Assembly (NCBI GenBank): GCA_020974905.1
Contig: CP087563.1
Span: 124,001 to 188,000, forward strand
Direction: 5' to 3'
Length of the DNA: 64,000 nucleotides
From: Planctomycetes bacterium syqfu
Lineage (GTDB): Bacteria; Planctomycetota; Phycisphaerae; Phycisphaerales; Phycisphaeraceae
Part shown: positions 22,274-57,930 of the stretch, in pieces
Layout: each line of letters begins with the position of its first letter
Numbering within the stretch: position 1 is the first letter of the stretch
Translations under genes and position numbers: made by a program
Notes under the pieces: model-generated
What the model was told of the DNA's origin: nothing
What the model saw: the letters and a program-made list of their open reading frames with translations, nothing else
Databases searched by the model: none

Positions 22274-23430
22274 CGATTCTGCATATCATCACGCGATTGA
22301 TTCTTGGAGGCGCCCAGAAAAACACGGTGCTTTGCGCCAAGGCACAGGTGGCAGCAGGGCATCGCGTGATCATTGCCTACGGTCCGATCTATGGCCCGGA
22401 AGGTTCACTGCTTGCTGAAGCACAAAAGGCGGGGGTCCAAACGGTGGAACTCTCATCGATGCGACGAGCAATCCTGCCACACCATGATGTGATCTCCTAC
22501 TTCCAACTGCGCAAACTCATCAAACAGACCAAGCCCGACATCGTGCATACGCACTCAAGCAAGGCAGGCATCACCGGACGCCTGGCAGCCTGGCATTGTC
22601 ATGTTCACGGTGTTGTTCATACGGTCCACGGATTGCCGTTTCATGACAAACAACCCCGCTGGGTGCATCAGCTTTATGTCACGCTTGAACGCATGGCAGC
22701 AAAACGCTGTCACAAGATCGTGGGCATTACCCAGGCCATGATCGATGCTTTTGTCGAAAAACACATCGGCAAATCCGAGCAATATGACGTGATCCCCAGT
22801 GGCGTGAGTGTTGACGAATTTCAATCTCCCACCGCTGACCGACATCACACGCGTAAAGCCTATGGCATTCCCGACACCGCGCCGGTCGTGGGGATCGTCG
22901 CCCGACTGGATCCACTCAAGGGGCATCATGACCTGCTGGACATCTTCCCCGAGTTACTTAAACGACATCCTGATTTGAGAATGTTTTTTGTTGGTGATGG
23001 TTGGGACCGCGAACGGATTGAAAAACGCATTGAAGACAAAGGTTGGGATAAGCAGGTCATTCTCGGCGGGTTGGTGCCACCGTCTCAAGTGCCCTCGCTG
23101 CTTGGTGCGATGGACATCATGGCTTTGCCTTCATATCAGGAAGGACAAGGCCGGACACTCGTCGAAGCACTGCTTTGTGATTGTGCGATCGTCGGCTATG
23201 ACGTGGGCGGGATCGGCGAGGTCTGCATCGACAATCAAACCGGGCGACTGGTCAAAGTCGGTGATAAAGACCAACTGATGCATGCCATCGATCAACTGCT
23301 TGAAGACGAACCCCAACGCAAGGCATTGGCAGCAGCGGGTAAGCAGCATGTGATGGAGAACTTCACCGAAGCCGTGATGGTGGAACGGTTGGCAAAATTG
23401 TACGGGCAAATGCTTGGCCACAACGACTGA
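22270..23430 (+). CDS. GT4-family glycosyltransferase
   Basis: Retaining glycosyltransferase with two Rossmann halves. The N-terminal half opens ILHIITRLILGGAQKNT. The linker has IPSGVSVDEF, and the C-terminal half has ARLDPLKGHHDLL and the nucleotide-sugar site EGQGRTLVEAL. TTG 22270 overlaps the truA stop by four bases and has GAGG upstream; the longer reading would run deep into truA. It probably builds a surface or capsular polysaccharide. The acceptor cannot be read. It does not resemble BshA, despite the BshB1-like gene further on. Confidence 0.88.
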   Translation: MTILHIITRLILGGAQKNTVLCAKAQVAAGHRVIIAYGPIYGPEGSLLAEAQKAGVQTVELSSMRRAILPHHDVISYFQLRKLIKQTKPDIVHTHSSKAGITGRLAAWHCHVHGVVHTVHGLPFHDKQPRWVHQLYVTLERMAAKRCHKIVGITQAMIDAFVEKHIGKSEQYDVIPSGVSVDEFQSPTADRHHTRKAYGIPDTAPVVGIVARLDPLKGHHDLLDIFPELLKRHPDLRMFFVGDGWDRERIEKRIEDKGWDKQVILGGLVPPSQVPSLLGAMDIMALPSYQEGQGRTLVEALLCDCAIVGYDVGGIGEVCIDNQTGRLVKVGDKDQLMHAIDQLLEDEPQRKALAAAGKQHVMENFTEAVMVERLAKLYGQMLGHND

Positions 23431-33331: not shown

Positions 33332-33385
33332 CATGCGCGGGTATCATCCCAATCGAATCTGGTTATGATTTGAATATTCACAACC

Positions 33386-33421
33386 AAGCCGCCAGATGAG
33401 ACATCGTCGAATCTGACGGGT
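33386..33421 (+). repeat. RAYT-type REP element, diverged copy
   Basis: AAGCCGCCAGATGAG followed by GAATCTGACGGG matches the REP at 55570 almost exactly, with a few extra bases in the loop. The stem is CCGCCAGA/TCTGACGG with one mismatch. It lies about 30 bases upstream of the GyrI-like gene. Confidence 0.75.
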
Positions 33422-42392: not shown

Positions 42393-42406
42393 TTTGCAAG
42401 GCATCA

Positions 42407-42685
42407 GCGACACGTGGTGTCGCAGCTATTTCTACTCTTCAAAAACTACTTTGCAGTTTCAGCGTTGCGTCGCAACGCAGCTATTATTCTAGATATCAAG
42501 AATCAATCGTATCACAGCTATTTTGAATCAGTATTTATACTCAAGTGAAATAGCTGCATTGCGACGCAATGCTGTATCGCGGAAGCGATAAATAAAGCTC
42601 TATTTTAAAAGCAGACATAAAAAAACTGCACGCTTTAAAACGTGCAGTTTTATTTATTTTCAATAGCTGCGACACCACGCATCGC
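42407..42685. repeat. Cluster of four AGCTATT-tailed 17-nt hairpins
   Basis: Hairpins with 7-base arms and 3-base loops lie at 42407-42423 and 42462-42478 (plus orientation) and 42556-42572 and 42669-42685 (minus orientation). Each has the tail AGCTATT on the same relative side. Stem sequences differ (GCGACAC, GCGTTGC, GCATTGC, GCGATGC) but still pair. Two related hairpins are at 10648 and 10715. Confidence 0.87.
42621..42660. terminator. Bidirectional terminator
   Basis: AAACTGCACG pairs with CGTGCAGTTT across eight bases; T runs follow on both strands. It lies inside the repeat cluster, between convergent ribBX and glyQS. Confidence 0.85.
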
Positions 42686-52352: not shown

Positions 52353-52410
52353 TAAAATTCTTCTCTGCGAACCTCTGCGGTTCTCTGCGTCTCTGCGGTA
52401 AAAATGCCTT
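52353..52410. repeat. CTCTGCG dispersed repeat
   Basis: Five CTCTGCG-like units (CTCTGCGAAC, CTCTGCGGTT, CTCTGCGTCT, CTCTGCGGTA) end in AAAATGCC, touching the accC stop. The final motif is shared with the repeat at 41063. Confidence 0.65.
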
Positions 52411-53764
52411 AACCCGGCTTGTGTTCGAGCAGACGCTCCACGAAGTGGATGTCGATGTCGCTGCGGCGGAAGTTGCCGTTGACCATCAGGTCTTGATGCA
52501 GCGGGATTGTCGTCTTGATCGGCTGCACGTTGAACTCACGAAGACTGCGACGAATGCCGAGGATGGCTTCTTCGCGGGTTTCCTTGTGGACGATGAGCTT
52601 GGCGATCATGGAGTCATAGTTGGGTGGTACGACATAGCCACCGTAGCAGTGGGTATCGACGCGGACGCCGGGGCCGCCGGGGGGATCGAAGTTGGTGATC
52701 TTGCCGGGTGATGGCGTGAAGTTGCGTGCCGGGTCTTCGGCATTGATACGCACTTCGATGGCGTGGCCGTTACGCTTGATCTGCTTCTGGGTGAAGGGCA
52801 GTTTTTCACCGGAGGCTACGCGGATCTGCATCTTGACGATGTCGATGCCGGTGATGGCTTCGGTGACGGGGTGTTCGACCTGCACGCGGGTGTTGACTTC
52901 CATCAGGTAGAACGTTCTGCTCTTACCATCCATGAGGAACTCAACGGTGCCGGCACCTGCGTACTTGGCTGCACGACAAAGACGCGCTGCAGCAGAGCAA
53001 AGGTCCTTGCGTTCATCGTCGGTGAGGATGGGACACGGTGCTTCTTCGATGAGTTTCTGGTGACGACGCTGCATGGTGCAGTCACGCTCCCAGAGATGAA
53101 CCACGTTGCCATGCTCGTCACCCATGATCTGGACTTCGATGTGGCGGGCCTTTTCGATGAATTTTTCGACGTAGACGGTCGGGTTACCGAAAGCAGCCTG
53201 GGCTTCCTGCTGAGCCTGTTGGAAGGCCTTGCGGAGTGCGATGTCGTTATGAGCAACACGCATCCCGCGACCACCACCGCCTGCAGCGGCTTTGACGATG
53301 ACGGGATACTTGATTTGCTTGGCAATCTTGAGTGCTTCGTCTTCGGAATCAATCGCACCCTTGGAACCAGGCGAGGTCGGCACCTTCTGCTTGATGGCCA
53401 ACTGCTTACAGGCAACCTTGTCACCAAGCAGGTGCATACACTCGACCGACGGGCCGATGAATTTGATGTTGCATGACGCACAGACTTCAGCGAAGTGTGC
53501 GTTCTCTGCAAGGAAACCGTAGCCGGGATGGATCGCATCCACGTTGGCGACTTCGGCAGCAGAGATAATCCGCGGGATGTTCAGGTAACTCTCGGATGCG
53601 ACCGGTGGGCCGATGCAGATGGCCTGATCAGCGAGTCGGACATGCGAGGAGTCTTTATCAGCAGTGGAGTAGACGGCAACGGTTTCGATGCCCATTTCAC
53701 GGGCCGCACGAATAATGCGGACCGCCACTTCACCACGATTAGCAATGAGTATGCGTGAAAACAT
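52409..53764 (-). CDS. accC: Biotin carboxylase subunit of acetyl-CoA carboxylase
   Basis: ATP-dependent carboxylation of biotin on AccB, first half-reaction of fatty acid synthesis. The N-terminus has ILIANRGEVAVRIIRAARE; the ATP-grasp region has KAAAGGGGRGMR and HIEVQIMGDEHG; the active site has FLEVNTRVQVEHPVTE in its usual form (here LMEVNTRVQVEHPVTE). The 451-residue length is standard. The order pepP-accB-accC on the minus strand is a widely conserved operon. Confidence 0.97.
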   Translation of the reverse strand: MFSRILIANRGEVAVRIIRAAREMGIETVAVYSTADKDSSHVRLADQAICIGPPVASESYLNIPRIISAAEVANVDAIHPGYGFLAENAHFAEVCASCNIKFIGPSVECMHLLGDKVACKQLAIKQKVPTSPGSKGAIDSEDEALKIAKQIKYPVIVKAAAGGGGRGMRVAHNDIALRKAFQQAQQEAQAAFGNPTVYVEKFIEKARHIEVQIMGDEHGNVVHLWERDCTMQRRHQKLIEEAPCPILTDDERKDLCSAAARLCRAAKYAGAGTVEFLMDGKSRTFYLMEVNTRVQVEHPVTEAITGIDIVKMQIRVASGEKLPFTQKQIKRNGHAIEVRINAEDPARNFTPSPGKITNFDPPGGPGVRVDTHCYGGYVVPPNYDSMIAKLIVHKETREEAILGIRRSLREFNVQPIKTTIPLHQDLMVNGNFRRSDIDIHFVERLLEHKPG

Positions 53765-55569: not shown

Positions 55570-55606
55570 ACACAAGCCGCCAGATGAGTGAAACGAATCT
55601 GACGGG
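55570..55606 (+). repeat. RAYT-type REP element (left of pair)
   Basis: ACACAAGCCGCCAGATGAG, then GAATCTGACGGGG: the same plan as the REPs at 57190 and 57862, with base changes in both stem arms. Confidence 0.82.
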
Positions 55607-55626
55607 GCCTCGGTGATTGTGAAGAA

Positions 55627-55673
55627 CCCGTCAGATTCATTCCCTTTGGTCATTCGTCTGACGGCTTGTGTTT
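55627..55673 (-). repeat. RAYT-type REP element (right of pair)
   Basis: Inverted partner of 55570. Read on the minus strand: ACACAAGCCGTCAGACGA, loop, GAATCTGACGGG. Its stem CCGTCAGA/TCTGACGG is perfect. The pair lies between pepP and the hexomutase gene. Confidence 0.82.
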
Positions 55674-57101: not shown

Positions 57102-57145
57102 GACGGCCCGTGCAGAATCGCAAAGCCTCATCTGCAGGCTTGCGT
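57102..57145 (-). repeat. REP element 1
   Basis: Minus-strand reading: AAGCCTGCAGATGAG, then GCGATTCTGCACGG. Slightly diverged from REP 2. Confidence 0.85.
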
Positions 57146-57189
57146 ATTTGAAGCACCTCTACACATTCTTAACAATGATCACATTTTTA

Positions 57190-57232
57190 ACACAAGCCCA
57201 CAGATGAGCCTTGGCGATTCTGTGGGGCAGTC
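57190..57232 (+). repeat. REP element 2
   Basis: ACACAAGCCCACAGATGAG, then CGATTCTGTGGGGC. Stem CCCACAGA/TCTGTGGG. It lies 13 bases before the transposase ATG and is identical to REP 4. Confidence 0.9.
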
Positions 57233-57245
57233 TTAAAATACCCCC

Positions 57246-57779
57246 ATGCCTCTTCCCGGGAAACAATGGCGTCATCTGACCTTCGGCACACACAACAGTT
57301 GGCTTCCCGGCGATCCGCGCGGTTTTCGAGACCGCAATCACCAATTGCATAGTTCCGGTGATCATCGCAATCCTCCGCCTGCTGGTGAATACGAAAAGCT
57401 CAATGAGCATGCCAGGCAAATAAGTGGCCAACCGATTGTCATCAGGCAATTTGACCGGTTGATTGTCCTACGCATTCTCTGTGAAAAAATAAATCAACTG
57501 GATCATCGCTGTCTTGTGATTGTGTGTTGTGCAATGCACGTGCACATTCTGGTTGAACTGCCGAACTACCTGCCAGAGATGAAAAAGGTAACAGGGAAGT
57601 TGAAACGATCTGCTTCCACCGCATTACGGGAACAAATGCCCGGGCGGATTTGGGCGCGGGGTGGGAATTATGAACCGGTTGAAACGAAAGCCCATCAACG
57701 GGCGGTATATCAATACATTCTCAGGCATCGGAAAGCGTGGGTTTGGTCCTACAATGACGGGGAGTTTTACAATGATTGA
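57246..57779 (+). CDS. REP-associated tyrosine transposase (Y1/HUH family)
   Basis: A 177-residue single-strand endonuclease-type protein related to IS200/IS605 TnpA. The HUH motif is H98-V-H100 (MHVHILVEL), and the catalytic tyrosine is Y155 or Y157 in VYQYILRH. The N-terminus HLTFGTHNSWLPGDPRGF matches proteins I remember from other planctomycetes. RAYT proteins cut and join REP palindromes in vitro and are thought to disperse REPs without moving themselves. The gene looks intact and lies between two REP pairs. Confidence 0.87.
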   Translation: MPLPGKQWRHLTFGTHNSWLPGDPRGFRDRNHQLHSSGDHRNPPPAGEYEKLNEHARQISGQPIVIRQFDRLIVLRILCEKINQLDHRCLVIVCCAMHVHILVELPNYLPEMKKVTGKLKRSASTALREQMPGRIWARGGNYEPVETKAHQRAVYQYILRHRKAWVWSYNDGEFYND

Positions 57780-57791
57780 AAACTTTCAGGG

Positions 57792-57835
57792 GACGGCCTG
57801 TGCAGAATCGCCAAGCCTCATCTGCAGGCTTGTGT
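57792..57835 (-). repeat. REP element 3
   Basis: Minus-strand reading: ACACAAGCCTGCAGATGAG, then CGATTCTGCACAGG. Nearly identical to REP 1. Confidence 0.87.
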
Positions 57836-57861
57836 ATTTGATCCACAACGACACATTTTTA

Positions 57862-57904
57862 ACACAAGCCCACAGATGAGCCTTGGCGATTCTGTGGGGC
57901 AGTC
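57862..57904 (+). repeat. REP element 4
   Basis: Identical to REP 2 over all 43 bases, as far as I can see, including the final GGGGCAGTC. Confidence 0.9.
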
Positions 57905-57930
57905 TGCGCTGATCACATATCAATCCAAAC

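Follow-up and report, generated by a model that had tools for sequence, protein, structure and literature searches.

The REP-transposase systems closest to the one described here are known from E. coli and from other planctomycetes. The E. coli TnpA-REP (group 2) needs a GTAG foot and a mismatch in the middle of the REP stem, with the upper half of the hairpin serving as an unspecific structural part, and group 3 enzymes work on stems without mismatches (PMC8266576). This recognition code was established with REPs that carry a GTAG foot, from E. coli, Stenotrophomonas and Marinomonas (PMC8266576). RAYTs in the sense of Nunvar 2010 carry an NP(L/V)(R/K)xG motif and an invariant Thr near the N-terminus (PMC2817692). 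GTAG REPs have also been reported in Planctomycetes, where Rhodopirellula baltica has many Y1 genes with flanking repeats, and some TIRs bear a GGGGWSAS motif (PMC3733652). TnpA-Y1 class 3 (Quentin et al. 2018) is mainly planctomycete and non-GTAG (PMC6006769). The original prediction had taken RAYT-REP systems to be described mainly in proteobacteria, which is over-stated, since planctomycete GTAG REPs and the non-GTAG class 3 are both in print (PMC3733652, PMC6006769).

The locus described here lies in a window of 64,000 nucleotides from a genome (G000) of 7.38 Mb in a single contig, and was compared with three genomes of the same genus, G048 and G049 among them. The nearest named genome is Phycisphaerales UBA7800, in agreement with the planctomycete host suggested at first. 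The planctomycete HUH-Y1 transposase and its genus-specific CAAG-footed hairpins are a distinct variant of the REP-transposase systems. Its new features are the CAAG foot and a tandem G.A mismatch, with planctomycete REPs and non-GTAG systems already in print. The lineage keeps the REP architecture of foot, lower stem, mismatch in mid-stem and free tip, with a foot and a mismatch of another sequence. Judged from sequence comparison, the system is probably REPtron-like, consisting of a domesticated HUH-Y1 transposase, specific for single strands and inherited vertically, and a non-autonomous, genus-specific population of hairpins (REPs).

The transposase gene of the window (L001, 57246..57779, plus strand) encodes a RAYT-like HUH-Y1 protein of 177 aa, and the intact Y1/HUH gene between two inverted palindrome pairs, as originally predicted, was recovered with H98 and H100 in place and both pairs located. 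In an alignment of 41 sequences (L001 and 40 relatives) H100 and Y157 never vary and H98 hardly does, whereas Y155 is not conserved. Thus, of the two tyrosines first proposed as catalytic, Y157 is taken as the catalytic residue and Y155 is discarded. H161, four residues after Y157, is nearly invariant and is followed by an Arg at the fifth position; the profile alignment of the 41 sequences sets it at the position of Q131 in IS608. T15 is invariant in 41/41 sequences and is a putative counterpart of the N-terminal Thr of RAYTs, and W19, G22-D-P-R25, R28 and D39 in the same N-terminal region are likewise invariant.

The protein is weakly known to sequence models, as its match to PF01797 (19.1 bits, cut-off 23) and to the NCBIfam RAYT model NF047646, REP_Tyr_transpos (18.6 bits, cut-off 80), both fall below the cut-off. 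A phmmer search of the PDB with the single protein gave no match, unlike a search with the profile of 41 sequences, which did. The AlphaFold2 model built from these sequences (pLDDT 88) is structurally similar to IS608 TnpA (Z 12.6) and to TnpA-REP of E. coli (4er8, Z 11.2). The HUH motif, the catalytic Tyr and the predicted TnpA fold together place the protein in the HUH-Y1 superfamily (IS200/IS605 and RAYT). The NP(L/V)(R/K)xG motif was not found beside the Tyr in the 41-sequence alignment, where L001 reads YILRHRKAW; with this motif missing and the NF047646 score far below its cut-off, the name RAYT does not apply in the strict sense.

Comparison with the described systems shows a mixture of shared and divergent features. 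The locus resembles the E. coli TnpA-REP/REPtron with its y, z1 and z2 REPs in the HUH-Y1 fold and in the REPs bracketing the gene (PMC2817692, PMC8266576), but L001 differs from the E. coli enzyme in the missing NP(L/V)(R/K)xG motif, the His four residues after the Tyr and the conserved N-terminal GDPRG region. With class 3 it shares occurrence in Planctomycetes/Acidobacteria, extended N-terminal conservation and many non-GTAG REP-like hairpins (PMC6006769). As described, however, class 3 has Y----Q and a CnGA foot, against Y157...H161 and CAAG here; the paralogs L005 and L006 do carry YIRRQ. The class 3 CnGA could conceivably correspond to the inner foot CTGA of our hairpins. Rhodopirellula baltica likewise has many Y1 genes with matching repeats (TIRtrons), and TIRs, some of them self-complementary, are dispersed singly or in pairs; a GTAG tag is described there (PMC3733652), unlike the hairpins here, in which none was seen. 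By its anatomy, the system appears to work like both RAYT and class 3 systems, although it has neither the RAYT motif and GTAG head nor the Y----Q and CnGA foot of class 3.

Four REPs surround L001. REP 1 (57102..57145, minus strand) has its CAAG foot at 57142-57139 and its hairpin at 57138-57109, and REP 2 (57190..57233, plus) has the foot at 57193-57196 and the hairpin, with a GA/GA internal loop, at 57197-57226. REP 3 (57792..57835, minus) lies past the 3' end of the gene and is followed by REP 4 (57862..57905, plus), which has the same sequence as REP 2. The hairpin pairs bracket L001 as direct repeats. Of the inverted pairs, called almost identical at first, the plus copies are identical across 54 nt (57180-57233 and 57852-57905) and the minus sides share 88% identity over 73 nt. 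The identity of the two plus REPs could also stem from gene conversion. Three further copies in the window were confirmed, with matches at 33385(+), 55570(+) and 55671(-), whereas the position 55627, formerly given for a copy, marks the other end of the minus copy at 55671. The REPs at 55570..55607 (plus) and 55627..55671 (minus) form the left and right halves of a heads-out (TT) pair, the right one with a long tip and two tandem G.A motifs. The REP at 33382..33421 (plus; match at 33385) is single and unpaired; in the matching intergenic gap G048 has a TT pair, and G049 has a single REP with another tip.

Hairpin anatomy was analyzed in 104 copies, comprising the 68 parsed copies of G000 (two of 70 matches were unparsed) less three with fewer than six paired positions, and 39 rows from 20 stretches of G048, where the model found at least 80 places. 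The places were found with a covariance model (R2) built from seven window copies. A CAAG foot stands immediately 5' of the stem in 96/104 copies, and tandem G.A then A.G mismatches occupy stem positions 10-11 in 90/104 (the next most frequent, A.A/A.G, in 7), both counts being partly circular because R2 and, in G048, the search pattern hold the foot and the left-hand GA. No GTAG was found among the eight non-CAAG feet of these copies, the search model itself containing the foot, which agrees with the original observation that these REPs have no GTAG-type head. The nine-position outer stem usually reads CCGCCAGAT/ATCTGACGG, its fourth position being a C.A mismatch.

Further in, the stem covaries. 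Copies with a 14-position arm have G-C (22) or A-T (17) at position 12, with 39/41 paired against 20.8 expected for shuffled partners. The arm-16 class has C-G (8) or T-A (7) at position 14 (15/15 paired, 7.5 expected), and at position 16 of the arm-18 class 26/32 are paired (13.0 expected). In 17 of the 32 arm-18 copies the tandem G.A/A.G occurs again two pairs closer to the tip, and the commonest triloops of the arm-14 class are GAA (11) and GCA (9).

E. coli REPs also have a tetranucleotide directly 5' of an imperfect hairpin, a 2x2 mid-stem mismatch, an upper half without a sequence role and an intergenic spread; they differ in having the GTAG foot and an AA/GC mismatch in place of CAAG and tandem G.A/A.G. 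By evolution alone, the planctomycete REPs appear to show a similar division of labour. In the mechanism that we propose, a REP made single-stranded, for example in the lagging-strand template, would fold into a hairpin, and the enzyme would read the CAAG foot together with the lower stem and its G.A platform. Y157 would then cut near the hairpin, and single REPs or heads-out pairs elsewhere between genes would be moved or replaced by the enzyme, with the tip acting as a structural cap only.

Tandem G.A mismatches between T-A and G-C can form sheared pairs. We suggest, tentatively, that this planctomycete HUH-Y1 clade may read a different REP code, consisting of a purine-rich NA[AC]G foot and a tandem sheared G.A platform in single-stranded DNA, in which tips are exchanged while foot and platform stay fixed. 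If so, specificity would be determined by a non-canonical DNA motif, and this motif and the enzyme would coevolve. A literature search, with most subscription journals outside its scope, found no paper treating REPs together with G.A mismatches.

The REP copies expected elsewhere in the genome are present. R2 found at least 70 places in G000 at E<=10 and at least 55 at E<=0.01, numbers that are lower bounds because 150 of 911 first-look candidates were scored. The three congeners have at least 80 (G048), at least 28 (G049) and at least 30 places, whereas 15 genomes from other genera of the family gave at least one place in total (E 0.0034), so that the REP family looks genus-specific. An open frame of at least 150 codons spans 7/26 REP copies, against 44/52 control points 750 nt away. 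The copies thus tend to be extragenic, as dispersed REPs should be, and they far outnumber the transposase genes.

Singlets and inverted pairs, whose tally had been suggested as a check, were counted in G000 and G048. Among the scored matches 46 in G000 and 34 in G048 are unpaired, and the scattered pairs (10/10 in G000, 21/21 in G048) are all heads-out, their model matches lying 10-25 nt apart. The four heads-in (HH) pairs all stand beside transposase genes. With these orientations, L001 lies inside a widened heads-out pair, formed by a plus REP before the gene and a minus REP after it, and one additional REP flanks this pair at either end.

The congeners provide a natural comparison of REPs and transposase genes. 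G049, the closest of them, is 91-93% identical to G000 around the L001 region, but L001 and all four flanking REPs are missing from their place, within one contig; the alignment runs to the outer edge of REP 1, is interrupted by about 58 unaligned nt, and resumes at the terminator before sat. No close relative of L001 or of L101, the second transposase of G048, was found in the G049 assembly (88% complete), and yet G049 retains at least 28 REPs. Gene loss in G049 would be the simpler reading, because the gene occupies this position in G048 too, which is the more distant relative. Occurrence of the palindrome in genomes without this RAYT had been regarded as evidence against a link between the two; G049 provides such a case at least in part, and gene loss explains it better than independence does.

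Twenty G049 REP loci, representing 22 of its 28 matches, were compared with G000, and 14 of these match G000 REP loci; of the six without a counterpart among them, two were followed. At the 14 orthologous sites the number of edits per base is 0.05 for the arms, as compared with 0.33 for the tip and 0.32 for the flanks (30 nt each side), the conservation of the arms being biased because both copies were found with a model needing arms. Tip length differs at seven of the 14 sites and some tips are replaced wholesale, with foot and outer arms nearly unchanged (e.g. L243/L042, L249/L035, L251/L014 and L261/L062), as if hairpin tips had been exchanged between copies. Presence differs at three inspected sites: the 55570 pair is found in G000 and in neither G048 nor G049, and a TT pair and a single REP of G049 are absent from G000. 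The 55570 pair was considered as either a fresh insertion or a loss or replacement elsewhere, the direction being ambiguous because the G048 and G049 sites hold other short sequence. REP turnover is thus real but slow, most examined sites being common to G000 and G049. The earlier description of the system as recently active was too strong and is weakly supported, with 14/20 REP loci common to G049, even though three sites differ.

L101 is 61% identical to L001 and is flanked by the REP subtype that dominates the scattered copies. The subtypes are told apart at stem position 9, where 90/104 copies have T-A, as in the L101 flanks, and 11 have T.T, including the four REPs that flank L001. No L101-like gene was found in G000, whose corresponding site has neither gene nor REPs. 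L001 may therefore not be the mobiliser of the scattered copies, since most of them are of the L101 subtype. The dispersed REPs could instead be orphans spread by a lost L101-type transposase, with L001 acting on its own four flanking REPs only, an explanation to which we give somewhat less than an even chance. The T-A majority, the failure to find an L101-like gene in G000 and the persistence of REPs in G049, where a close relative of neither gene was found, all favour it. However, three dispersed G000 copies (986379, 1543825 and 3892623) have L001-like stems, and in E. coli three REP subtypes, as well as the REPs of another REPtron, are substrates of TnpA-REP (PMC8266576), which makes cross-action of L001 plausible.

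In G048, L101 and REPs of the dispersed subtype (L206, 2351-5083 of C20) stand beside a 679-aa ORF, which we take to resemble an ankyrin-repeat protein, and this stretch is missing in G000. Loss of L101 from G000 by a REP-bounded deletion was considered, but the missing part is a larger stretch that includes the ankyrin-repeat gene, so that its boundary is uninformative on such a deletion. In a further genome, G050 (contig C49, 10465-12540; L114/L077), the orientation of the transposase with respect to glmM is opposite to that in G000 and G048, as recombination between inverted REPs would give.

The G048 ortholog of L001 is 82% identical and has the same place between glmM and sat. The dN/dS of this pair is 0.10/0.92 (ratio 0.11), close to the values of the neighbours sat (0.047/0.64) and glmM (0.117/1.41) in the same comparison, which shows that the transposase gene is under purifying selection. 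Relatives at E<=1e-10 are encoded in 26/51 genomes of the family, G000 included. G000 itself has six related genes, and its Y1 places rise to a total of 12 when the Pfam profile is used as well; ten of 11 inspected Y1 genes have, by eye, palindromes on both sides with a sequence of their own for each gene, the exception being L195, which bears NPVRA. The Y1 genes at positions 22598, 1441437, 1188221 and 4268335 of G000:C1 (L197, L199, L201 and L203) are each bracketed by their own palindromes (by eye).

An ordinary IS200/IS605-like insertion sequence or a TIRtron with hairpin ends, moving as a whole, would account for the fold and catalytic residues of IS608 TnpA and for the direct repeats of hairpin pairs around the gene. 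IS608 and ISDra2 TnpA are indeed the best structural matches and use a hairpin with a 5' guide tetranucleotide. The left guide of IS608 is AAAG. Such units are recognized by several near-identical copies, which were not found here: G000 has one copy of L001, and its paralogs are 24-40% identical and have hairpins of their own. The gene also keeps its glmM-sat place in G048, the many non-autonomous hairpins far outnumber the genes and form scattered pairs of opposite orientation, and the 177-aa protein has a conserved N-terminal region. Altogether, this explanation is very unlikely.

The wider family was represented by 80 loci kept of 134, with titles mostly from Planctomycetota, one from Vicinamibacteraceae and a few others. 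Hairpins were counted around 88 distinct loci drawn from these, from the related genes of G000 and from those of the family genomes, after excluding nine of the 80 named loci, L077, L081 and L093-L100, and removing eight duplicates. Hairpins starting with CC numbered 302 near the genes and 42 at 900 nt, where somewhat less sequence was available. The 4-mers preceding the 302 near hairpins were most often AAGC (38, that is AAG before CCC stems), AAAG (34), AACG (22), CAAG (17) and GAAG (12); GTAG or GTGG feet were found in 0/302. A strict scan gave NN[AC]G-footed hairpins on both sides of 24/88 loci, on one side of 19 and at none of the remaining 45. NN[AC]G feet are equally frequent near (106/302) and far (15/42) and hairpin density alone differs, so that it is the inspected REPs, and not the near/far contrast, that support the foot consensus.

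GA/GA loops made up 35/115 of the symmetric 2x2-loop hairpins near the 88 genes, against 3/98 distal and 0.6/68.6 after shuffling, in counts where the same hairpin may appear repeatedly (L101 gives nine of the 35). By locus, they occur near 10/88 genes (that of L114 looks like chance) and at 2/88 distal positions, which rules out a tandem G.A in the REPs of all relatives. On a tree of 86 transposases (12 labelled G.A-core, 31 plain and 43 unlabelled; two of the 88 loci had short or broken frames and were left out) the G.A core clusters in one region, where two plain rows stand between the 12. The label changes three times, as compared with a mean of 10.7 for shuffled labels (0/500 as low), some labels (e.g. 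L079) coming from a loose regular expression. The proposed comparison of transposase phylogeny with REP sequence thus shows that G.A-core hairpins cluster. That the hairpins are terminators or mRNA-stabilising elements kept by selection, with the transposase incidental, agrees with their intergenic tendency and with arms conserved above flanks at orthologous sites (a comparison biased by the search model) but is most improbable, as palindromes with a sequence of their own flank each of six related G000 transposase genes (by eye), hairpin type clusters on the transposase tree, and REP presence varies between close species.

The system offers one genome with ten palindrome-flanked Y1 genes (by eye) and relatives that supply a natural gene loss and shared and unshared REP sites. 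With the altered foot and mismatch, the many Y1 genes and a relative that has lost the gene, both the reading of REP sequence versus shape and the survival of REPs after loss of the enzyme are therefore testable.

Other repeats share the intergenic space of these genomes. A GCAGAG-rich repeat, separate from the REP family, is found in the window (~52360-52425), at L266 and at L252, in intergenic gaps of G000 and G049. A palindrome unlike the REP family, present in the window at 42397-42430, stands in the glmM gap of G048 (L193) where G000 has the REP pair, and it seems that a given intergenic site may be occupied by different REP families in turn.
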